DNA from: Desulfovibrionales bacterium | GTDB taxonomy: Bacteria > Desulfobacterota > Desulfovibrionia > Desulfovibrionales > Desulfovibrionaceae | Length of the DNA stretch: 42,983 nucleotides | NCBI GenBank assembly: GCA_030156255.1 | Contig: JASGMV010000035.1 | Span: forward strand, 1 to 42,983 | Reading direction: 5' to 3' | Shown here: positions 28 through 30,345 of the stretch, piece by piece | Position numbering within the stretch: the stretch's first letter is position 1 | How the letters are laid out: every line of letters starts with the position of its first letter | Position numbers and translations under genes: made by a program | The notes under the pieces: model-generated | The model's database searches: none | What the model saw: the letters and a program-made list of their open reading frames with translations, nothing else | What the model was told of the DNA's origin: nothing

Positions 28-60
28 GGTTGGAGTGCGCGGGCATGGTCCGCGCAGGCG

Positions 61-114
61 AAAAAAACGGCGTTCCGTGGGAGGAGGGCGAACGCTGTCT
101 GCACGGAACGCCGT
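61..114 (-). terminator. Stem-loop with T-run on the minus strand
   Basis: Two perfect 13-bp arms (67-79 and 102-114, ACGGCGTTCCGTG and its complement) enclose a 22-nt loop. The seven A residues at 61-67 give a T-run only when read on the minus strand, so the structure looks like a terminator for leftward transcription. No convincing minus-strand gene lies immediately to its right. Confidence 0.55.
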
Positions 115-409
115 CGCAGCGAGAACAGAACACTTCAATCAATAATATATAGAAATATTTTAAATTTTTTAGACAACTCTGCAAACTTACGGCCCATGCC
201 GGGATGAGGCGTTCGTTTCCGAGCTTGGAGTCATGCTTGCGGCGAATGTGCGTCCAATCAGCGCCGGCTCCAGGCGCGCTCTTGGGTTGGCGGCGAGCGG
301 CGCTTGTTTCCCCGCCCGTTTCGACGTAGTTTCTCGAAAAGGCGCAAAGGCGTCGTGGACGCGCGCCGCAGGTGGCGGCGCCGCAAAGCGTTTTGCGTGA
401 GGAGGAGGT
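115..409. other. Upstream region of the GH13 gene, no gene seen
   Basis: Together with the hairpins at 1-114 this makes 409 bases without a convincing gene. Positions 136-176 are strongly AT-rich in an otherwise GC-rich window, as expected for a promoter or regulator-binding region of the gene at 410. I cannot assign firm -35 and -10 boxes. Positions 180-400 are GC-rich, with no open frame that resembles a protein. Confidence 0.5.
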
Positions 410-19773: not shown

Positions 19774-20664
19774 ATGAAAGGAATCATTCTCGCTGGCGGC
19801 TCCGGCACGAGACTGCATCCCCTCACTCGCGGAGTGAGCAAGCAGCTCTTGCCGGTCTACGACAAGCCCATGATCTATTACCCTCTGTCCGTGTTGATGT
19901 TGTCCGGAATTCGCGAGGTGCTGATCATCTCCACGCCGCGGGACACTCCCCGCTTCGAAGAGATGCTGGGCGACGGCTCAAGCCTTGGAATCAGCCTTTC
20001 CTACAAGGTGCAGCCCGACCCGGGAGGACTGGCCCAGGCCTTCATTCTGGGCGAGGAGTTCATCGGAGGCGACGCGGTCTGCCTGGTCCTCGGTGACAAC
20101 ATCTTTCACGGCCACGGGCTGTCCACCATTCTTCAACGGGCTGCGTCGCTGGAGCGCGGCGGGGTGGTCTTCGCCTATTCCGTGCGCGATCCCGGCCGCT
20201 ACGGCGTGGTGGAGTTCGACCAGGACATGCGCGTCTTGAGCATCGAGGAAAAGCCGCGGGAGCCCAAATCCAAATACGCCGTGACCGGGCTCTACTACTA
20301 CGACAACAACGTGGTCGAGATCGCCAAGAGTCTCAAGCCTTCGGCCAGGGGCGAACTGGAGATCACGGACGTGAACAACGTCTATTTGCAGCGGGGCGAG
20401 CTGGCCGTGGAGGTGCTTTCCCGCGGGTACGCCTGGCTGGACATGGGCGCCATCGAATCGCTGCTCTCGGCCGGGAACTACGTCAAGGCCATCCAGGACC
20501 GGCAGGGTCTGCTGGTGGCCAGCGTGGAGGAAATCGCTCTGCGCATGGGCTACATTACGCCTGCACAGCTCCGGGAGCTGGCCCAAGAACTCATCAAGAC
20601 CGACTATGGCCGTTATCTGCTGGACGCGGCCCGGGAATATGAACAAGGAGGATCGCCCTCATGA
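19774..20664 (+). CDS. rfbA: Glucose-1-phosphate thymidylyltransferase
   Basis: A 296-residue RmlA/RfbA that makes dTDP-glucose from dTTP and glucose-1-phosphate, the first step to dTDP-rhamnose for surface polysaccharide. The nucleotide loop [23 protein letters not shown], the catalytic region GDNIFHGHG and [14 protein letters not shown], and the allosteric-region sequence near [15 protein letters not shown] are all present. The length matches the ~290-residue family. The usual rmlB/C/D partners are not adjacent. Its stop overlaps the ATG of a lipoprotein gene (ATGA). Confidence 0.97.
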
Positions 20665-21287
20665 CTGCTCGCCTTCGCCCCTTCGCCTTTGCACTGTCCC
20701 TGTTCGGTTTGCTGTTGGCCGCCGGATGCGGCGGCGGACCGCAGATTCATCCGTTGCGGGAGATGCATCCCCAACCGGCGCCTTTCTCGCTCGTCGCCGC
20801 CACCAACGTGCTCATGAACTATGGAGGCAGCCTGGAGGAGCAGGCCGTGGACCGCAACGTGCTCCCGGCCCAGGAAGCCATCGAACTCATGACTTCCAAA
20901 GGCTACGTTTATGCGCCGAACGGGCCGGTGCGGTACGCCGTCAAGGCCGATATGCTCTGCTACGACCCGCAGCTCGTCAGCACGGTGCATGCGCAGGACG
21001 ACGCTCTGGACATGATGGAGCCCGTGGCGCCGGACACGTTCGCCGAGAGCCTGGACCGGGCCGTGATGGAGGAGACGTGGTACCAGTACCCCCAAAATTC
21101 CGGCCCCGACATGTGCGTGGGCAAGATTTTTCTCACGGTGACCGAGAACACGGGCGAGGAGGAGAAGGAAGTCTTCAAAGGCGGCGTCTATACGCCGGGC
21201 TGTCCCTACGAAAACGACTGCGCCTACAGCGCCTGCTCCAAGGCTCTCTCGGCCAAGCTGCAGCAGGTATTGCAGAAACTTTTTTAA
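20661..21287 (+). CDS. Small lipoprotein of unknown function
   Basis: 208 residues. A lipoprotein signal (LLLAAGC, Cys23) precedes a Cys-containing mature region. Six further cysteines lie in the C-terminal half, around [22 protein letters not shown]. The end is [17 protein letters not shown] do not recognise the family. The ATG overlaps the rfbA stop by four bases (ATGA), so it is translationally coupled to a cytoplasmic nucleotide-sugar enzyme, which suggests a role in surface-polysaccharide assembly, but this is only inference. A terminator follows at once. Confidence 0.75.
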
Positions 21288-21426: not shown

Positions 21427-23253
21427 TTACTCCTTCGGATTGGAGAAGCCCGGAGGCAGGGCGTCGCCGTCTCCGGCCGGACTGGGCGCGGCCTCCGGCT
21501 CCGAGAAGCCGGGGGGCGGTCCTGCGTCCGGAACAGGCGTGGCGAGTTCGTCGAAACCGGGGGGCGCCTCGCCGGGAGGACTTTCGTTCGCCGGCCCGCC
21601 GTGGGGCGCGCGCAGGCGCAGGTCCAAGCCTTGCATGCGACTGGCCTCGACATAGGAGCCTTGGGCCAGGCGCAAAGCCCCCGACGCCTGCACCTGGATG
21701 GCGCGTTGCGGCCGCACCGGGCAGTGGTATTCGCACAATCCGCAACCGGCGCAACGCTCCTCGATGACGAAAGGCGCGGGGACGGCGATCCCCGGCGTTC
21801 GGCGCAACTCCACGGCGTCGTACGGGCAGACTTCGTCGCAGACCAGGCATTGGCGCCCTTCCTCCCAGGCCAGGCAGGTGCGGCGGAAGATCCGCGCCGT
21901 ACCGAGTTTGGCGTGTTGTTTTTCCCACAGAGACAGAGCGCGCAGGGCCCGGGTGGGGCACGCCCGGCCGCAGACGTTGCAGGCCGGATCGCATGGGCCG
22001 CGCGTTGGCGTCAGCGTCGGGGTGAACACGCCGGCCAGTCCGGCTTGGAGCCAGACGGGCTGCAGCGTGTTGGTGGGGCAGGCGTCCATGCACTGGCCGC
22101 AACGTACGCAGCGCGCCAGAAAGGAGGGTTCCGGCAGGGCGCCGGGCGGGCGCAGCGTGGAGCCTTCCGGAGGGGCGCCGGGTCCGGCCGGCGCCAGGGG
22201 GCTGGCCAGGTCCGTGTAGGCCAGCAGCGCCGCAGAGAGACCGGCCGTTCCCGTCCACAGGAAGGCTCGCCGGGAGGGAGACGGCGGGGCCGGGGCTGGC
22301 GCGGATCGCCGTTCGAGGGCCGCTCCGCTTTCCGCGGCGCGTTCCGATGCGCCGCCCAACAACGGAAACGCGATGGCCTCCACCGGGCAGGCCCGGGCGC
22401 AGGCGCCGCAGGCGATGCACTCGCCGTAGCGGGTATGCAGCGGGTCCGGCGGAATGGCGTCCATGGGGCAGCGGCGTTGGCAGGCGCCGCAGTGGATGCA
22501 AGCCTCGGAAACGCGCCGCCGGATGAGCGGCCCGCCGCCGGGAATGCGCGCGAACAAGGCGAAGAGGGCCCCGGCCGGGCACAGGTAACGGCACCAGAAA
22601 CGCGGCGCGGCCAGCGCGGGCAGGAGCACCGCGGCCAGCATGGCCGCCAGGAAGATTTGCGTGGCGAAGCGGGGGACGGGCAGCGAGGCGTAGGAGAGGG
22701 CGTCCCAGTTCAGCGCGAAGAAAAGCGGCCGGCCCGCATCCAGTCCCAGAGACGCCGCGGCCTTGAGCAGAGGCAACAGGAGCAGGCCGTAAAAACGTGT
22801 GGCCAGGGGGATGGGCGCAGCCAGAAAGACCAGAGAAACGCCCAGGACGGCCGCCGTCAGAATGAGCGCCAGGACGTGGTATTTCGCCATGCGCAGCCGA
22901 CGCCGGGTCTCCGGCCGCAACGCGCCGACGCGGCCTTTCGCCGCGCGGTCCGCCAGGTCCACGGTGACGCCCAGAGGGCAGATGAAGCCGCAGAATATGC
23001 GGCCGGCCAGAACGGCCAGCGCCAGCATGAGCGCGGCTGGCCAGAGGCGCGGGAGAAGGCTCCGATCCGCCAGGGCCGAACCGGCCATCGCCGAGGGGTC
23101 CATGCGCAGGAAGAAATCCGCCCCCTCCGGAGCTGACGCGGCCCAGAGCAGCGCCAACACGAAGAGCAGCAGGCTGGCGCCTTGGACTGCGCGCCGCAGC
23201 AAGCCGGAGGGGCGGCCTCGGAAGAGGGGGCGCTTCCTGCTTTCGTCCGTCAG
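21427..23253 (-). CDS. NapH-NapG-like membrane polyferredoxin fusion
   Basis: About 608 residues. The N-terminal half is a NapH-like membrane part with ~5 helices and two cytoplasmic CxxxCP motifs (FCGFICP, WCRYLCP), then two ferredoxin sets (CIHCGACQRRCP, CIACGACARACP). Near residue 330 a twin-arginine-like segment SRRAFLWTGTAGLSAALLAY forms another helix. After it comes a NapG/MauM-like periplasmic ferredoxin (CVRCGQCMDACP, CDPACNVCGRACP, CLVCDEVCP, CAGCGLCEYHCP). It would carry electrons from the membrane quinol side across to periplasmic clusters. A proline-rich tail with PPGFSEPE-type repeats ends it. A CTG start (23253) overlapping the DUF362 stop fits GGGAGG seven bases upstream. TTG 23202 is the alternative. 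Confidence 0.82.
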   Translation of the reverse strand: MTDESRKRPLFRGRPSGLLRRAVQGASLLLFVLALLWAASAPEGADFFLRMDPSAMAGSALADRSLLPRLWPAALMLALAVLAGRIFCGFICPLGVTVDLADRAAKGRVGALRPETRRRLRMAKYHVLALILTAAVLGVSLVFLAAPIPLATRFYGLLLLPLLKAAASLGLDAGRPLFFALNWDALSYASLPVPRFATQIFLAAMLAAVLLPALAAPRFWCRYLCPAGALFALFARIPGGGPLIRRRVSEACIHCGACQRRCPMDAIPPDPLHTRYGECIACGACARACPVEAIAFPLLGGASERAAESGAALERRSAPAPAPPSPSRRAFLWTGTAGLSAALLAYTDLASPLAPAGPGAPPEGSTLRPPGALPEPSFLARCVRCGQCMDACPTNTLQPVWLQAGLAGVFTPTLTPTRGPCDPACNVCGRACPTRALRALSLWEKQHAKLGTARIFRRTCLAWEEGRQCLVCDEVCPYDAVELRRTPGIAVPAPFVIEERCAGCGLCEYHCPVRPQRAIQVQASGALRLAQGSYVEASRMQGLDLRLRAPHGGPANESPPGEAPPGFDELATPVPDAGPPPGFSEPEAAPSPAGDGDALPPGFSNPKE

Positions 23254-24164
23254 AGGGAGACCTCCCGCACGACCAAGTTTTCGATGTCCATGCGGCCCAG
23301 GCCCCGCTGGTGCGCCAAGCGAATGTACTTCACCTGCTCCGGACGCATGCGGCGCCCCCACCATTCGAACGCGCCCACGGTGTAGGCGTCCGCGGCCACG
23401 AAATCGCGCGAGGCGATGACGGTGTTCTCCCGGAGCACCCGGCCCGGGCCTTGGGGGCCGTTGGTGGAGAGCACGCGGGTGGCGTCCACCACGGCGAGGT
23501 CCGCGGGAATGCGGGTGTTCAGGTCCACGATGGTTTCGTGCAGGCCGCGGCGGTGCATCAGGCCGCGTTCGTAGATGAGGCCCATCATGCCCTTCATGGA
23601 GAGGCTGACGCCGGCGCCGCTGTGGGACTTGGCCACGGGTGCGGCGATGAGGACGTCCGCGCGCAATACGTCACGCATGAAGCGGTTGCTTGTCATGGCC
23701 TCGCCCTTGGGGATGGCCTCCTCCACGAAGAAAGAGGGCTCCTGCAGGGCGCGCACGGAAGTTTCCGGCAGGTCTTGGCAGGCGGCCCGAATGCCGGAGC
23801 GCTCCATGCAGATATCCGCGGAGCGCAGAGGGTTGTCCAGGATGCGGATATCGGCGGCGCCGGCCTCCCGGCACATCCGGGCCAGCTCCCTGACGACCAG
23901 GGGATGGGTGTTGGTGGCGTACTCCGGCGGATCGGCGAAGCTCATGTTCGGCTTGATGACAACGCGTTGTCCGGGTTTGACCACGGTGGACATGCCGCCC
24001 AGCATCTCCACGGCGGCGCGGGCGGCCGCCGCCGGGTCTCCTTTGGCCACGGCGATGTTCGGCGCCTGGGCCGCTCTCGCCAGGGAGGGGGCCAGGCCGG
24101 AGGCGCCGGCGGAAAGCCAGAGGGCGCCGCGCATCTGCCACTTCAGAAACTCTCTGCGTTGCAT
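23250..24164 (-). CDS. TAT-exported DUF362 protein
   Basis: 304 residues. The N-terminus QRREFLKWQMRGALW...ARA is a twin-arginine signal peptide, implying export of a folded, cofactor-bearing protein. The mature part is DUF362: KPGQRVVIKPNMSF, NTHPLVVRELARMCREAGA, APVAKSHSGAGVSLSMKGMMGL, and the late DFVAADAYTVGAFEWWG. DUF362 proteins often occur next to, or fused with, 4Fe-4S ferredoxins; the reaction is unknown. Here the gene overlaps the start of the NapH-NapG-like polyferredoxin, which should be its electron partner. The ATG has GGAGCC upstream. Confidence 0.88.
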   Translation of the reverse strand: MQRREFLKWQMRGALWLSAGASGLAPSLARAAQAPNIAVAKGDPAAAARAAVEMLGGMSTVVKPGQRVVIKPNMSFADPPEYATNTHPLVVRELARMCREAGAADIRILDNPLRSADICMERSGIRAACQDLPETSVRALQEPSFFVEEAIPKGEAMTSNRFMRDVLRADVLIAAPVAKSHSGAGVSLSMKGMMGLIYERGLMHRRGLHETIVDLNTRIPADLAVVDATRVLSTNGPQGPGRVLRENTVIASRDFVAADAYTVGAFEWWGRRMRPEQVKYIRLAHQRGLGRMDIENLVVREVSL

Positions 24165-24203: not shown

Positions 24204-27200
24204 TTACGGCTCGCTTCGGCGCTCCACGGGATGGGGGACGCCATGGATGTCCTTGGCCATGTCCGTGGGGGGCGCCTTGAACAAAAGACGCCAGACATCC
24301 TCCAGAATGACGTACAGGGAGGGAACCAGCACCAGCGTGACCACGGTGGTGAACAGGATGCCGAAGCCGAGGGAAAGGGCCATGGGAATGAGGAATCTCG
24401 CCTGCCGGGAGGTCTCGAAGATCATGGGCGCCAAGCCGCCGAAGGTGGTGGCCGTCGTCAGCATGATGGCCCGAAAGCGCTGGGCGCCGGCCTCCTCCAC
24501 GGCCTCTCTGGCCGAAACGTCTTTGCGCCTGCGGTTGGCGAAGTCGATGAGCACCAGCGAGTCGTTGATCACGACGCCGGACAGGGCGACCAGCCCGAAC
24601 AGGCTCATGAGGCTCAGGGAGTAGCCCAAAAGCAGGTGGCCGAAGACCGCGCCCACGATTCCGAAGGGGATGCAGAACATGATGATCAGCGGCTGAATGT
24701 AGCTTTTGAACGGAACCGCCAGCAGGGCGTAGATGCCCAGCAGGGAAAGCAGCAGGCCGGTCATGAGGCTTTGCACACTGTCCCGCATGTCCGCCTGGTG
24801 GCCCTCGAAGCTGTAGGAGAGCCCGGGATATTTCGCCGTGAGGCGAGGCAGCGCGTCCGCGACAAGGGAGGCGAGCACCTGTTCCGCCTGCTCCGGAGGT
24901 TCGACGTTGGCGGTCACTTCGATGGTGCGCCGCCCGTCCGTGCGGGTGATGGAGGTGTACGACTTCGCCTCGGTGATGTGCGCTGCGTCGAGCAGTGGGA
25001 TTTCCTCTCCATCGGGCGCGCGCAGGATCATGTCTTCGATGGTCGTTTCGCTGGCGCGCTCCTTCTCCGGCAGCCTGACGACCACCGTCACTTCATTGCG
25101 GCCGCGTTGCTGTTTGACGGCTTCGGCGCCGTAAAAGGCGTAGCGTATCTGTCGGGCGACTTCCTGGGAGGTCAATCCGACCCGCTCGCCGGCGGGGAGC
25201 AACTGAATGTCGAACTGCCGCTTGCCGCTGGCGGAGCCGTCGTCGATGTCGTTGGCGTTGTTGAAATTTTCAAGATCCCTTGCCAGATCGGCGCCCGCCT
25301 GCTCCAGCGTATCCTCGTTTCTGTGGCTCAACCGGATGGTGAGGTTTTTGCCGGAGCCCGGCCCTGCCCGGTTCGCTTCGAAGGTCATGGACTCCAGGCC
25401 GGCCAAGGCGCCGACTTTGCTGCGCCACAGGTTCGTCACCGCGGTGGTGCCGATGGGGCGGGCGCCCGCCGGCGTCAAAAAGAGTCGAACGGAGATGGTG
25501 CTTTCATTGACCTGGCTGAAGACGCCTTGGGATAATTTGTCGCCGCCGTTTTCCCTGGCGACTTCTTCGGCCGCATCCACCAGGATTTTTTCTACGGACT
25601 CCAGGCGATGTTTCGAGGCGCCCGCCGGCAGCACCGCTTGCGCATAGGCGTAATCGGATTCCGTTCGAGGGAAAAGGACCAAACCCATTCGGCCCGAGCC
25701 CACGAAGCTCAGCGTGCCGATGAGCAGCGCCAATCCGATGGCCAGGACGCTGTAACGATGCTGCAGGGTGAAGTCCAGAAAAGGGGCGTACCGATACCGG
25801 ACGAATCTTTCGAACGATTCGCTGAATTTCATTTGCCAGCGGGAGACGACGTTCAAGGGCCAGGGCGGCGGTTTGGTTTTGCTGTGGGCCAGGTGGGCCG
25901 GCAAAACGAACAGGGATTCGATGAGCGAGACCAGAAAGACGCAGGTCACCACGACCGGAATGATTCCGAAAACCTTGCCCATGAAACCCGGCACGAAATA
26001 CAGCGGTATGAAGGTGACGATGTTGGTCAACACGCTGAAGACCACGGGCATGGCCACTTCTTTCACGCCGTCCATGGCGGCCTGCACGGAGTTTTTGCCC
26101 ATGCGCCGGTGGGAGAATACGTTTTCGCCGACGATGATGGCGTCGTCCACCACGATCCCCAGCGTGACGATGAACGCGAACATGGTGATCATGTTGATGC
26201 TGAAGTCGGTGGTCGAGAGCAGGAGAAAAGAGCCGAGGAAGGAGATGGGGATGCCCAGGCTGACCCAGAACGCAAGGCGCGTGTCGAGAAAGAGCGCCAA
26301 GAGGACAAAGACGAGGGCGAGGCCCATGTAGGCGTTCTTCAGCAACAGCTCGGCGCGATCCCGGAATATCTGGGAGCTGTCGCGCACGACGGACAGGTGG
26401 ATTCCGTGGGGGAGGGTATGGTTGAGCCGGCCGACGATTTCGAGGGCCGCATCCGCGACTTCGATCGGAGTCTGGTCTCCCACGCGGTAGACCTCGATCA
26501 TCACGGCGCGTTGCCCGTCGAAGTCGGCCCAGGCGTCGGTGTCTTCAAATCCCTCGCTGACCCTGGCTACGTCGTCCAGAAGAATCTGGGCGCCGTTGGT
26601 CGTGGTCAACAGCGGAATGCGTCCGTACTCGCGGGCGGTTTTGCGGCGGTCGTTCATGCGCAGCAGAATATCGCCGGACTCGGTCTTGAGGTTGCCTCCG
26701 CCCAACTCCACGGACGCCGCCGAGACCGTATTCGCCACGTCGCCCAGCGTCAGGCCGTAGCGGCGCAACGAGGCTTTGGGAATCTCGATGTGGATTTCGT
26801 AGTCCCGGACGCCCTGCAAATCGACCTGGGTGATGTGCGGGTTTTGCAGCAGTTCGTCCCGGACCTCCTCCGCCGCCTCGCGCAGCAAGGCTTCGGACTC
26901 GTCGCCGTGCAGCGCGATGGACAACACGCCTCGCTTGTGGGAGTCGATGGCGATGTTCGGCTCCTCCGCCTCGTCCGGGAAGGAGTCCACCCGGTCGATT
27001 TCGCTTTTGATGTCCTGCCACAGGCGAATGATGTCCGCGCTTTCCAGGGCCTCCACCGTGACCGTCGCCAACCCCTCCGTGGCGGTGGAGGTGATTTCCT
27101 TGACGCCCTCCAACCCCTGGACCGCCTCTTCCGATGCGAGGATGATGGAGTTCTCGACCTCCTCGGGGCTGGCGCCGGGCAGGCTTACGGTCATGGTCAC

Positions 27201-27356
27201 CGTGTCCATGGTGAACTCGGGGAAGATTTCCTGCTTGATGCGGCCGGCCATGATCAAACCGCCCACGAGGAACACGATCATGATCAGGTTGGCGGCGACG
27301 GAATTGCCGGCCATCCAGCCCATGGGGCCGAGATGCTTGGGGCTTTTGGCGCTCAC
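24204..27356 (-). CDS. RND efflux pump inner-membrane subunit (AcrB/MexB-like)
   Basis: A 1050-residue proton-driven multidrug-type transporter with the standard length and layout. N-terminal TM1 (SVAANLIMIVFLVGGL) is followed by the IKQEIFPEFTMDTV motif. Two large periplasmic loops are present, one after TM1 and one after TM7. The central TM bundle contains TLGIVVDDAIIVGENV (proton-relay Asp pair) and the second has GLVALSGVVINDSLVLIDFANRRR. The pattern resembles the less-studied AcrB subgroup seen in Desulfobacterota, so substrates cannot be told. It uses GTG 27356, overlapping the adaptor stop (GTGA). It is the third gene of a tripartite operon. Confidence 0.93.
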   Translation of the reverse strand: MSAKSPKHLGPMGWMAGNSVAANLIMIVFLVGGLIMAGRIKQEIFPEFTMDTVTMTVSLPGASPEEVENSIILASEEAVQGLEGVKEITSTATEGLATVTVEALESADIIRLWQDIKSEIDRVDSFPDEAEEPNIAIDSHKRGVLSIALHGDESEALLREAAEEVRDELLQNPHITQVDLQGVRDYEIHIEIPKASLRRYGLTLGDVANTVSAASVELGGGNLKTESGDILLRMNDRRKTAREYGRIPLLTTTNGAQILLDDVARVSEGFEDTDAWADFDGQRAVMIEVYRVGDQTPIEVADAALEIVGRLNHTLPHGIHLSVVRDSSQIFRDRAELLLKNAYMGLALVFVLLALFLDTRLAFWVSLGIPISFLGSFLLLSTTDFSINMITMFAFIVTLGIVVDDAIIVGENVFSHRRMGKNSVQAAMDGVKEVAMPVVFSVLTNIVTFIPLYFVPGFMGKVFGIIPVVVTCVFLVSLIESLFVLPAHLAHSKTKPPPWPLNVVSRWQMKFSESFERFVRYRYAPFLDFTLQHRYSVLAIGLALLIGTLSFVGSGRMGLVLFPRTESDYAYAQAVLPAGASKHRLESVEKILVDAAEEVARENGGDKLSQGVFSQVNESTISVRLFLTPAGARPIGTTAVTNLWRSKVGALAGLESMTFEANRAGPGSGKNLTIRLSHRNEDTLEQAGADLARDLENFNNANDIDDGSASGKRQFDIQLLPAGERVGLTSQEVARQIRYAFYGAEAVKQQRGRNEVTVVVRLPEKERASETTIEDMILRAPDGEEIPLLDAAHITEAKSYTSITRTDGRRTIEVTANVEPPEQAEQVLASLVADALPRLTAKYPGLSYSFEGHQADMRDSVQSLMTGLLLSLLGIYALLAVPFKSYIQPLIIMFCIPFGIVGAVFGHLLLGYSLSLMSLFGLVALSGVVINDSLVLIDFANRRRKDVSAREAVEEAGAQRFRAIMLTTATTFGGLAPMIFETSRQARFLIPMALSLGFGILFTTVVTLVLVPSLYVILEDVWRLLFKAPPTDMAKDIHGVPHPVERRSEP

Positions 27357-28573
27357 TGCTGTTGGGCTCCGGAGTTGCCGTTCGAGTCGGCGTTCAGGAC
27401 GGAGAGTTGCATTCCCGCCACCGGCGTGGAGATGTCGGACACGACGATCTGGTCCTCGGGGGAGACGCCGGAGGCGATGAACGCGTGCTCGTCGTCCTTC
27501 CACGCCGTCTTCACCGGGCGGATGGCCAACCGGCCGTCTTCGACGGTCCAGACGGTGTCGCCGGCGCGCAAGGCTTTGCGGGGGAGCGCGAGAACGTCCT
27601 GCAACTGCTTGCCCTGAATGAGCGCCTGGACGTAGTCTCCCAGAATCAGGGGGGTGTAGGAGGCGTTGTCCGTGCGCCCGAGTCCCAGAGGATCTTTGAC
27701 GACCACGAGCACTTTGGCCATACGGGTCTGGTCGGTCAGCGCGCCGGTGAGGCGGACGGCCCGCCCGCTCCATTCGCCGTCGCCGGTCTGGGAGACCACC
27801 CGCGTCGGGGCGCCTCCTTTCTGGTTCAGGTCCAGCAGGGCCAACCGGTCCAGCGGCACGGCCGCCTCGATCCAGTATTCGTCGGAGCCCACAAGCGTGC
27901 CCACCGCGTCCTGGCTGGAGACGTAAGTCCCCAGGTTGGCGGAGCGTGCGGTGACCAGGCAGTCGAAAGGCGCGCGGAGCACCGTGCGCGACAGGTCGAT
28001 CCTGGCCTGGTCGAGATCGGCCTTGGCGCTGTCCAGCGCGGCCTCCACCTGGGCCAGGTAGGGTTTGCGCAGCACCAGGTCTTCATTGGCTTCAAGGCTC
28101 TTGACCGAAAGTTTCTTGATGATCTCCAGCTCTTCGCGGGCCACGCTCTGTTCGCCGCTTTCAATGTCGAAATTCGCCTTGGCGTTCACCACGGCGCTTT
28201 GGGCCTTCTTGAGTTGGATGCGATAGTCCCTGTCGTCGAGCCTGATGATCTCTTCGCCCGCGGGGATGACGCCTCCGGGGATGAAGTTGTCGTTCATGGA
28301 GATCACCGTCCCCGAGACTTCAGCCTCCAGATTGATCTCCTGGGCCGGGACCGCCTCACCCATGCACGACACCACGACGTTGGCCGATCCGCGCTTCGCC
28401 CTGGTCGTCTCCACCGCCAACACGGCGGGCTTGGGGCGAATTTTTTTCACCCCGGGCTTGCTCGCCTGGAAATAGGCCGCAGCCGCAACGCCCACGGTCA
28501 GAAACAGGATCGGGAAGACAATCTTGCCCACTTTGGACATCAAGGAGCGGTGCTGTTGTTTCTGAGCCATCAT
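27353..28573 (-). CDS. RND periplasmic adaptor (membrane fusion protein)
   Basis: A 406-residue HlyD/AcrA-type adaptor that links the inner-membrane pump to the outer-membrane factor. An N-terminal membrane anchor (KIVFPILFLTVGVAAAAYF) precedes the lipoyl half GEAVPAQEINLEAEVSGTVIS, an alpha-helical hairpin (~residues 115-200), the second lipoyl half TVLRAPFDCLVTARSANLGTYV, and beta-barrel domains. Start ATG 28573 overlaps the TolC-like stop (TGATG) with AAGGG five bases before it. Its stop overlaps the pump's GTG, giving full translational coupling of the three genes. Confidence 0.93.
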   Translation of the reverse strand: MMAQKQQHRSLMSKVGKIVFPILFLTVGVAAAAYFQASKPGVKKIRPKPAVLAVETTRAKRGSANVVVSCMGEAVPAQEINLEAEVSGTVISMNDNFIPGGVIPAGEEIIRLDDRDYRIQLKKAQSAVVNAKANFDIESGEQSVAREELEIIKKLSVKSLEANEDLVLRKPYLAQVEAALDSAKADLDQARIDLSRTVLRAPFDCLVTARSANLGTYVSSQDAVGTLVGSDEYWIEAAVPLDRLALLDLNQKGGAPTRVVSQTGDGEWSGRAVRLTGALTDQTRMAKVLVVVKDPLGLGRTDNASYTPLILGDYVQALIQGKQLQDVLALPRKALRAGDTVWTVEDGRLAIRPVKTAWKDDEHAFIASGVSPEDQIVVSDISTPVAGMQLSVLNADSNGNSGAQQQ

Positions 28574-30021
28574 CAAGACCCTTGTAAACTTTTGTCGCCG
28601 TCCGGAGACGTTTGTTCTTTCACTTTCGCCAGAGGACGCAGCTCTTTGGTCCAGTCGCCGCCCAGGGCGCGGTGCAGATCGACGCGATCCGTGAGGAGCG
28701 TTCCACGCTCCTGGACGATCTGCCGCTCCAGGCTTTGAACGCTGGTCAATTGGGAAACGTAGGTCAGGTAGTCGGACAAGCCTTTGAGGTAGCGTTGCCG
28801 GGCTTCGTAAAGCGAAATGCGCGCGACCCGGAGCTGGTCCTCCAGCAGTTCGATGTAGCGCTTCTGGTGCGATTCGTTGACCAGAGCATCTTGGACTTCC
28901 TTGACGGCCGTGGCCACGGTCTGGGCGTAGTCGTTGAGGTTTTCGCTGACCACGGCGCGGGTGCGGTCGACCTCTGCGGCCCGCGCCCCGCCGTCAAAGA
29001 TCGGCGCGGTGAGCCCGCCGGCGATGTTGGTCATCCAATTGGTCAGGATGGTGGTGAACTGGGCGCTGGAAAAGGCGGCGTCGGCCGACAGGACCAGATT
29101 CGGCAAACGGTCGGCCCGGGCGGCCGAAACGTCCCAGTCGGCGGAGGTGAGGCGGAGTTGCGCCGAGCGTACGTCCGGGCGCATCACCAAAAGATTTGCG
29201 GGAATGCCGGTGGCCGGCAGGGGCGGAGGCCTCGGTACGGTTTGCTGCTTCACCTGCACGGCATCCGGGGACGTGGAGCCCAGCAACAGCGCCAGGCTGT
29301 TGAGATAGAGCTTCTCCCTGGCCTCCAGCGGGACCAGGTCGGCCCGCGCCGCCACCACCAGTTCTCGTTGCTGGGAGACGTCCAGGGCGTTGGCCAGACC
29401 GTTGGCGAAGCGCAGTTCCTGGAGATGGAGAATGGTCTCGTTGGTCTTGATCTGCTCCTCGAGAATGGATTTCTCCTGGCGCACGGCCAAAAGGTCGGCC
29501 CAGGCTGAGGCCACCGAGGCGGCGAGGGTCATGGCCGCGGATTCGTAGTCCTCCTGGGTGGCTTCCGCCTCCAGGCGTCCGGCCTCGCTGAGGGAGCGCA
29601 ACCGGCCCCACAGGTCGACCTCATAGGATGCCGCCAAACCGAGATAATAGGCTTCCGTTTCGGAATAGGCATGGTTGGCCCGGCTGTTCGACTGGCGATA
29701 CCTGCGCTCCTGGCTGGCGCTCGTCTCGCCGTCCAGCGAGGGGTACAATGCGGCGTTCGTCTTGCGGGCCGTGGCGTAGGCCTGCTCCACGCGCGCGTAG
29801 GCGGAGCGCAAATCGAAGTTGCCTTGCAGCGCCGTGTCCACCAGATGGTCCAGCTCCGTGCTGTTGAACGACTTCCACCACCGGCCCGGGTCGAAGGCCC
29901 CCGCCTGCTCCAGACTGTATTTGTCGGGCAGCTCCGTGGGCGAGCCGGTCCGCTCGTCCGGCGCGAATACGGCGCAGCCGGTGAGAAAACCGAAGAGGAG
30001 CATGAGTGTGAGATGTTTCAT
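28573..30021 (-). CDS. NodT-family outer-membrane efflux lipoprotein (TolC-like)
   Basis: A 482-residue outer-membrane factor. The lipoprotein signal ends LTGC (Cys ~17). Two OEP repeats follow: the first with PDKYSLEQAGAFDPGRWWKSF and LDHLVDTALQGNFDLRSAYARVEQA, the second with RPDVRSAQLRLTSADWDVSAARADRLPNL. The family forms the trimeric exit duct for RND pumps. The ATG at 30021 is preferred because the lipobox starts right after it; the longer frame adds an unlikely 61 residues. No clear ribosome site is seen. It heads the operon. The AT-rich upstream region 30022-30345 has palindromes. Confidence 0.92.
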   Translation of the reverse strand: MKHLTLMLLFGFLTGCAVFAPDERTGSPTELPDKYSLEQAGAFDPGRWWKSFNSTELDHLVDTALQGNFDLRSAYARVEQAYATARKTNAALYPSLDGETSASQERRYRQSNSRANHAYSETEAYYLGLAASYEVDLWGRLRSLSEAGRLEAEATQEDYESAAMTLAASVASAWADLLAVRQEKSILEEQIKTNETILHLQELRFANGLANALDVSQQRELVVAARADLVPLEAREKLYLNSLALLLGSTSPDAVQVKQQTVPRPPPLPATGIPANLLVMRPDVRSAQLRLTSADWDVSAARADRLPNLVLSADAAFSSAQFTTILTNWMTNIAGGLTAPIFDGGARAAEVDRTRAVVSENLNDYAQTVATAVKEVQDALVNESHQKRYIELLEDQLRVARISLYEARQRYLKGLSDYLTYVSQLTSVQSLERQIVQERGTLLTDRVDLHRALGGDWTKELRPLAKVKEQTSPDGDKSLQGS

Positions 30022-30345
30022 GGGCGCGCTATTCGTGGAAATTGGTGTTTGCACATGGCAATTGGCGAAAATATAAGCAAAAATTGATCCAACGAGAAAA
30101 TGTCCGCGTATGCTGGCGTTTCGGAGGAATGCGCACGGACGAAACGTTATGCTTGTGCAGTTTTTTGCATATTGGCATGCAAACTTTTGCGCAGGCCTTC
30201 CCATCTTACGCAGCTCCGGAGAATTTCGCCAGGGGTAGAGGGGGAATTCCGTGTTCCCGGTCTCTTGCTTTCAAAGGTTCGCTCCAGCAGCATGGTTGTG
30301 AGCCTCAGGGCGAACCGCTGCGAAAAGGTCCAATGCGGCGGCAGG
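30022..30345. other. Intergenic control region of the efflux operon
   Basis: 324 bases with no convincing gene. Its first 160 bases are AT-rich. It holds two palindromes: TTGC-ACATG-GCAA (30049-30061) and TTTGCAT-ATTGGC-ATGCAAA (30164-30183). A TATATT (minus strand, near 30075) could be a -10 box, though I see no good -35. At 30276-30316 GGTTCGC/GCGAACC forms a large-loop inverted repeat downstream of the methyltransferase stop. Confidence 0.5.
30164..30183. promoter_or_regulatory. Candidate operator for the efflux operon
   Basis: Perfect 7-base arms TTTGCAT and ATGCAAA are separated by ATTGGC. The position upstream of an efflux operon and the dyad symmetry suggest a TetR- or MarR-type operator. 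No regulator gene is adjacent. Confidence 0.35.

Follow-up and report, generated by a model that had tools for sequence, protein, structure and literature searches.

A Tat-signal DUF362 protein with a predicted LarA-type fold is encoded beside a NapH-NapG fusion in a Desulfovibrionales bacterium

Two known systems bear on the gene pair described here. NapGH acts as a quinol dehydrogenase. In LarA, the nickel-pincer nucleotide (NPN) accepts a hydride, which is then given back. The pair lies on a 42,983-nucleotide stretch of DNA, called the window, from a Desulfovibrionales bacterium (GenBank assembly GCA_030156255.1, contig JASGMV010000035.1, positions 1 to 42,983). On the minus strand, a gene for a DUF362 protein with a twin-arginine translocation (Tat)-type signal is followed by a gene that joins a NapH-like membrane part to a NapG-like ferredoxin part. 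A preliminary description of this locus noted the fusion and its coupling to the DUF362 gene. We find that the fusion has already been described and that what is new here is the LarA-type fold predicted for its DUF362 partner.

The fusion family was described by Tooke et al. (2017, eLife e26577; PMC5449189) as a dual Sec/Tat “polyferredoxin” (PFD), a fusion of NapH and NapG; thus the fusion itself is already known, which the preliminary description had overlooked. In that work, Tat-dependent export was shown with reporter fusions for the PFD homologue of MLMS-1, and low hydrophobicity is given as a property of the Tat-dependent last helix. DUF362 is not mentioned in its text, and the sections of the paper available to us name no function for the family. 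The pairing of fusion and DUF362 was not found among the matches listed in our literature search.

For the DUF362 family, the portions of the literature naming it that were available likewise gave no function. One source places DUF362 (PF04015) in Pfam clan CL0471 with LarA/DUF2088 and uses it only as an outgroup (PMC11770544); among the matches listed, this was the only appearance of DUF362 together with LarA or NPN terms. No proposal of DUF362 as an NPN protein was found among the matches listed, in a search that had most subscription journals and preprints outside its scope. The sections seen of PMC11796402 report that ~15% of the genomes analysed have larB, larC and larE without larA, and that in most cyanobacteria NPN probably serves a protein still to be identified. 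An NPN enzyme is also suspected in Haloferax volcanii (PMC8305020).

The NapH-NapG fusion and its pairing with DUF362

The fusion matches the NCBIfam NapG model over residues 363-561 (E 2e-29) and the NapH/MauN model over residues 233-333 (E 2e-22), in both cases under the curated cut-offs. Its scores were 76.7 against a cut-off of 234 (PRK09477) and 80.1 against 213 (TIGR02163) for NapH, and 102.3 against 269 (PRK09476) and 97.5 against 178.9 (TIGR00397) for NapG. Therefore, the fusion is a relative of the two equivalogs and a member of neither. The features of NapH (two CxxxCP motifs, two [4Fe-4S] sets and membrane helices) and those of NapG (four [4Fe-4S] motifs after a Tat motif) are all present. 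We aligned 39 of 90 fused sequences, with identity down to 30%, and numbered the conserved columns and the arginine pair (RR) from TTG 23202. In the NapH part, 10 of the 12 cysteines that make up the CxxxCP motifs and the two [4Fe-4S] sets are invariant and the other 2 are kept in at least 90% of sequences; in the NapG part, all 16 cysteines of the four [4Fe-4S] clusters are invariant. The two-part anatomy read from the motifs in the preliminary description is borne out.

Between the two cluster blocks lies a twin-arginine segment, SRRAFLW, whose arginines (residues 311-312) are kept in at least 90% of the 39 fusions. A pattern search found RR at this place in 83/90 fused open reading frames (ORFs), which is a lower bound because the search passed over RR in at least L047, L048 and L051. 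That this segment stays inside the protein as a membrane helix, as the preliminary description held, is supported by an AlphaFold2 model of the fusion from TTG 23202 (pLDDT 85.2, pTM 0.83), which has a helix at 311-329. The peak hydropathy of the helix following RR is 1.05, compared with 1.7-2.8 in the NapH stretches. The window protein therefore has what defines a PFD: a NapH-NapG fusion with RR directly before the fifth membrane helix. A fold search with the fusion model returned ferredoxin-type partial matches only, the best being FwdF (E 1e-3).

The pairing was counted in 90 ORFs that hold both halves, with the duplicate locus L032 dropped and the window's own locus counted once. A DUF362 gene stands directly upstream on the same strand in 84 of them, as the preliminary description had noted for the window. 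Among the remaining six, L093 has a DUF362 gene beyond the distance limit, L025 and L064 lie at a contig edge, and L011, L060 and L088 have no adjacent DUF362 gene in the bases fetched. By record titles, the pair occurs in Thermodesulfobacteriota, Chthonomonadaceae, Spirochaetes, Chloroflexi, Planctomycetota, Zixibacteria, Aminicenantes and Acidobacteriota. The pairing is real and extends across several phyla. Separate napG- and napH-like genes in close relatives had been named beforehand as the finding that would speak against a coupled pair. Loci beside DUF362 are fused except for one distant Latescibacterota locus (L092), where split napH- and napG-like genes follow DUF362; the separate genes of some other relatives (e.g., L028 and L029) are less similar and have no DUF362 within their 1.5 kb flanks. 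At L060 (1170-4702), where the fusion has no DUF362 nearby, the gene directly after it starts, as judged by eye, like an aldehyde ferredoxin oxidoreductase.

A third conserved neighbour was sought as metabolic context in 71 loci with flanks, and none was found. The fusion was present in 71/71 and DUF362 in 68/71 of these loci. The next shared groups (36, 30 and 27 of the 71 loci) are frames on the strand opposite the pair in the window. Groups found in 16 and in 15 loci come after them, with representatives that, by eye, resemble sensor kinases and ABC ATPases.

The preliminary description had the fusion start overlapping the DUF362 gene. The 115-base overlap arises when ATG 23364 is taken as the start of the fusion. 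An ATG at this place recurs in three other loci (L036, L039 and L079) because the position falls within DUF362 codons. In many relatives, a possible start codon of the fusion overlaps the end of the DUF362 gene by 4 bases or is found within a few bases of it. The window codon at the 4-base-overlap place is CTG 23253 (CTGA), and the next candidate is TTG 23202; judged from the sequence, translation likely starts at one of these two.

Predicted fold and conserved residues of the DUF362 protein

The window's DUF362 protein is a full-length match to PF04015 (E 1.3e-44, 153 bits against a cut-off of 24). By a loose criterion, RR within the 130 residues ahead of the domain, 85/87 DUF362 ORFs carry a candidate Tat signal, which in the window reads QRREFLK. 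The two others are a truncated ORF (L082) and one that reads RK (L056); the probable signal of a further protein (L053) likewise reads RK. A cytoplasmic DUF362 partner, which the preliminary description had listed as counter-evidence, was thus not what we found.

An AlphaFold2 model of the protein (pLDDT 92.1, pTM 0.87) was searched against the PDB with Foldseek. All 18 matches with E up to 0.001 (ranks 1-18) were LarA-family nickel-pincer enzymes or their apoproteins. With VIA-align, twelve LarA-family entries (4nar included) gave Z scores of 15.6-19.7, with 202-216 residues aligned at a root-mean-square deviation of 2.6-3.3; the protein ranked after them had a Z score of 5.7. The matched region is the NPN-binding N-terminal domain of LarA. 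Searching PDB sequences with the protein or its 57-row profile returned nothing up to E 10, so that only the fold search found LarA. Judging from the model, the DUF362 partner looks like a protein with the fold of the LarA NPN domain. The preliminary description had overlooked this fold and called the periplasmic reaction of DUF362 unknown; given the LarA-type fold, that reaction can be narrowed. Independently, in 59 genomes (that of the window and 58 relatives), 35/35 Pfam Lar_N matches whose start is at or beyond profile position 131 fall inside DUF362 matches.

Conservation was scored in 57 of 85 prepared DUF362 proteins. Asn73, Asp110, Lys179, Lys191, Arg200, His204, Asp227 and Asp259 are invariant (57/57), and the K-x-H-x9-K motif is present in 87/89 DUF362 ORFs. 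When hhalign is used to compare DUF362 with a profile of 14 LarA relatives, His181 and Lys191 fall opposite the equivalents of the catalytic His174 and the NPN-anchoring Lys (E 0.0032), and the H-x9-K spacing is identical in DUF362 and LarA. The residue numbers onto which we map the DUF362 sites in L. plantarum LarA are in part presumed. The roles of LarA His108 and His174 and the ligation by lysine and histidine are as given in PMC12611868. His181 is present in 56/57 proteins; the exception (L015, DUF362 ORF 424-1485) has Asn at this position and retains Lys191, and a His-to-Asn change is known from a LarA group with a single catalytic histidine (PMC12611868). His204, which lies beyond the region that hhalign aligns with LarA, is a candidate nickel ligand.

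The possibility that the DUF362 partner binds an iron-sulfur cluster was also weighed and rejected. Its two commonest cysteine columns (49/57 and 43/57) are single cysteines ~20 residues apart with no CxxC-type set, and thus an Fe-S site of its own is not expected. One locus (L038, 12577-13353, minus strand) has a second Tat-signal DUF362 paralogue, which does not have the K-x-H-x9-K motif.

NPN-synthesis genes and the reading of the pair

The genome of the window encodes two LarB, two LarC and one LarE, all over the NCBIfam cut-offs and on two contigs, and a profile search found no LarA match in it. The genes form the sets larE-larB-larC and larC-larB (L119, 4237-6462; L126, 7113-9230); LarC of the first set matches the LarC1 model only, and LarC of the second also matches LarC2. 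The genome has two DUF362 genes. The second, in which no Tat signal can be recognised, is a match to the Npun_F2552 model that stays under the cut-off (E 5e-61, 206.7 bits against 500).

In two relatives, DUF362 adjoins the NPN-synthesis genes: in G025, a Tat-signal DUF362 of another subgroup is adjacent to both larC and a gene that resembles larB, and in G001 a DUF362 of this kind is followed by larC. The two loci with this other subgroup beside larB and larC, or beside larC only, are L121 (6752-9270, minus strand) and L120 (6704-8576, plus strand); a third copy (L122, 8320-9288) has neither larB nor larC in the 16 kb covered. In five genomes of one family (f31; G206, G246, G300, G331 and G347), a DUF362 gene lies ~9-11 kb from larC; in G206, genes that look by eye like recA and alaS lie between the two.

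Co-occurrence was scored with a Lar_N match of at least 60 bits, a threshold of our choosing, counted as strong LarA. In the 59-genome set, LarC is present in 50 genomes and DUF362 in 55, and DUF362 is present in 50/50 LarC-positive genomes, 34 of which have no strong LarA. Among 246 genomes of the phylum that are at least 95% complete (5 and 9 unlisted table entries were deduced from gaps and agree with the tallies), 207 have both LarC and DUF362, 10 have DUF362 only, 14 have LarC only and 15 have neither (odds ratio 22, Fisher p 3.9e-10, not corrected for kinship). The 15 with neither belong to seven listed families, plus one genome of an unlisted family. Of 65 pair-bearing genomes first named, 50 were covered: LarC was found in 41, and 19 of these 41 have no strong LarA. 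Six of the nine LarC-less pair-bearing genomes encode LarA, which suggests missing sequence. Among the controls, Synechococcus elongatus and Haloferax volcanii have LarC and DUF362 matches and no LarA match.

Four features point most readily to an oxidoreductase: a LarA-type NPN domain that keeps a single catalytic histidine, the absence of the substrate domain, the Tat signal, and the six-cluster quinone wire encoded next to it. We therefore favour, tentatively and at somewhat less than an even chance, a Tat-exported DUF362 protein that is an NPN-type oxidoreductase exchanging electrons with the quinone pool via the NapH-NapG fusion. The products of the two genes would form a periplasmic redox system of two subunits. 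After folding in the cytoplasm, the DUF362 protein would be supplied with NPN, attached at Lys191, by the LarB/LarC/LarE pathway and be exported by Tat. In the periplasm, NPN, helped by His181 and with its nickel held by His204, would take a hydride from a small substrate or give one to it, as in LarA. The hydride would not be returned; instead, single electrons would move between NPN and the NapG part with its four [4Fe-4S] clusters, and the NapH part would connect these clusters to menaquinone, in one direction or the other. The NapG part could also cover the open side where LarA carries its second domain. The preliminary description drew an electron path from quinol to the periplasm; the route follows from NapGH homology, with a presumed direction and end point, and flow may run toward quinone or from quinol.

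Several observations weigh against this reading. On the structural side, the C-terminal substrate domain of LarA is absent: the alignment stops at model residue 271, which corresponds to LarA ~271 of ~430. The second catalytic histidine of LarA (His108) has no conserved counterpart, H181 and H204 being the sole histidines in columns conserved at 90% or more. The hhalign match is weak by itself, with a probability of 9.9%, the window's DUF362 protein has no match to Pfam Lar_N up to E 1, and the authors of PMC11796402, in the part seen, expect an NPN protein with a fold distinct from LarA. The evidence for contact between the fusion and the DUF362 protein is their gene order. On the genomic side, LarC is common in the phylum regardless (221/246), and in the 59-genome set it occurs in 26/27 genomes with the fusion and also in 24/32 without it. 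Some genomes counted as having no strong LarA have weaker Lar_N matches, perhaps a divergent LarA (e.g., G036, G038 and G055). Corynebacterium glutamicum and Methanocaldococcus jannaschii have LarC without DUF362, and Bacteroides ihuae has DUF362 without LarC. Finally, the DUF362 proteins of two LarC-negative genomes (L195 and L197; a third fetched, L196, was not counted) retain the motif, so that an expected loss of the motif in such genomes was not borne out.

The DUF362 of Bacteroides ihuae without LarC, the motif kept in the two LarC-negative genomes, the missing C-domain and second histidine, and the general point that the same fold does not prove the same function all fit a different account: the protein has a LarA-type fold and a K/H pocket that holds a ligand other than NPN, either another metal or an organic molecule, and the fusion still supplies or takes electrons for a periplasmic reaction. 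We consider this account unlikely, although it is the strongest of the alternatives. It is opposed by the presence of LarB, LarC and LarE without LarA in the window's genome, by the DUF362 genes that adjoin larB/larC in two relatives and by the identical H-x9-K spacing.

A redox-neutral role is improbable. The DUF362 protein could be a periplasmic NPN racemase or epimerase like LarA, with NapHG only maintaining or restoring active NPN. No net electrons are required for chemistry of the LarA type, lability is reported for the NPN of one LarA homologue (PMC11796402, in the part seen), and a protective role fits the lack of a conserved catabolic neighbour. However, a six-cluster membrane wire beside the gene in 84/90 loci would be costly for repair, and the loss of one histidine from LarA's catalytic pair speaks against a racemase that works with two bases. 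Marginally less probable still is that the DUF362 protein is an accessory factor that delivers clusters or metal to the NapG part or assists its assembly, with a cytochrome, for example, or some other periplasmic acceptor taking the electrons. The three fusions without adjacent DUF362 would fit, as would the lack of a conserved metabolic neighbour, but the conserved polar residues resemble an active site and not a cysteine-based metallochaperone, and to our knowledge an ordinary NapG is assembled without a DUF362 protein.

A wider claim is possible but more doubtful than the NPN-type oxidoreductase reading: DUF362 proteins would be the NPN clients of the many genomes that make NPN and have no LarA. 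The Tat-exported subgroup with its NapH-NapG wire, as a periplasmic nickel-pincer dehydrogenase or reductase linked to quinone, would then be the first case of an NPN enzyme tied into an electron transport chain. DUF362 is a concrete, testable candidate for the NPN user in larBCE-positive, larA-less genomes. It would then answer a question raised in print (PMC11796402, in the part seen), and a quinone-linked NPN enzyme would move the cofactor from the hidden redox step of racemases to open redox in respiration.

Features of the locus and comparison with known systems

Features of the gene pair (positions in the window; residues are those of the respective protein)
Feature	Position	Strand	Basis or remark
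DUF362 gene	23250..24164	-	304 aa; Tat-type signal; LarA-like predicted fold; PF04015
Tat-type signal peptide of DUF362 protein (QRREFLK...ARA)	24066..24164	-	sequence
LarA N-domain-like part, residues 41-271	23352..24044	-	VIA-align, against LarA-family about 35..271
K179-x-H181-x9-K191 motif	23592..23630	-	57-protein conservation; hhalign pairing
His204, candidate nickel ligand	23553..23555	-	57/57; putative equivalent of LarA nickel His
NapH-NapG fusion gene	21427..23253	-	likely start CTG 23253 or TTG 23202; ATG 23364 unlikely
NapH-like membrane part	22363..23202	-	columns C71, C75, C204, C208, C235-C245, C262-C272
CxxxCP motifs of NapH-like part	22975-22992 and 22576-22593	-	alignment of 39
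Two [4Fe-4S] sets of NapH-like part	22387-22500	-	alignment of 39
Hydrophobic stretches of NapH-like part	near residues 1-19, 49-79, 110-128, 176-194		hydropathy
Internal twin-arginine motif and following helix	22213..22278	-	alignment, pattern search, AlphaFold2, hydropathy
NapG-like periplasmic part	21688..22212	-	cysteines C365-C494; NapG model E 2e-29
Four [4Fe-4S] cluster motifs of NapG-like part	21721-22110	-	16 invariant cysteines

An RND efflux operon (ACR_tran, HlyD-type and OEP genes; 24204-30204, minus strand) precedes the DUF362 gene on its strand with a gap of 39 bases, and the pair may therefore be co-transcribed with it. The pump is not among the shared neighbour groups listed for the 71 loci. 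On the other side, convergent to the pair, a gene at 20661-21287 (plus strand) encodes a protein of 208 aa that begins like a lipoprotein and matches no Pfam family up to E 0.1.

Like the PFD of Tooke et al. (PMC5449189, as far as seen), the window protein is a NapH-NapG fusion with RR before a membrane helix 5 of low hydrophobicity, has clusters on both sides and belongs to a family of wide phyletic spread. It differs in that seven clusters were counted in the MLMS-1 PFD, whereas the motifs here amount to six plus two CxxxCP. With the NapGH of periplasmic nitrate reductase, it shares the kinds of cluster motif, the CxxxCP motifs and a Tat motif before the NapG part. It differs from NapGH in being one polypeptide and not two, in scoring under the curated NapG and NapH cut-offs, and in its named window neighbours, which are the RND operon and others and not a nitrate reductase (napA was not searched for genome-wide).

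The DUF362 partner shares with LarA and the lactate racemase superfamily the predicted NPN-domain fold and the catalytic His and NPN-anchoring Lys at equal spacing. In contrast to LarA, it has no C-terminal domain and no conserved second catalytic histidine, carries a Tat-type signal and is encoded with an electron-transfer protein. Compared with the DUF362 family at large, this subgroup is set apart by its Tat-type signal and by having no ferredoxin cysteines.

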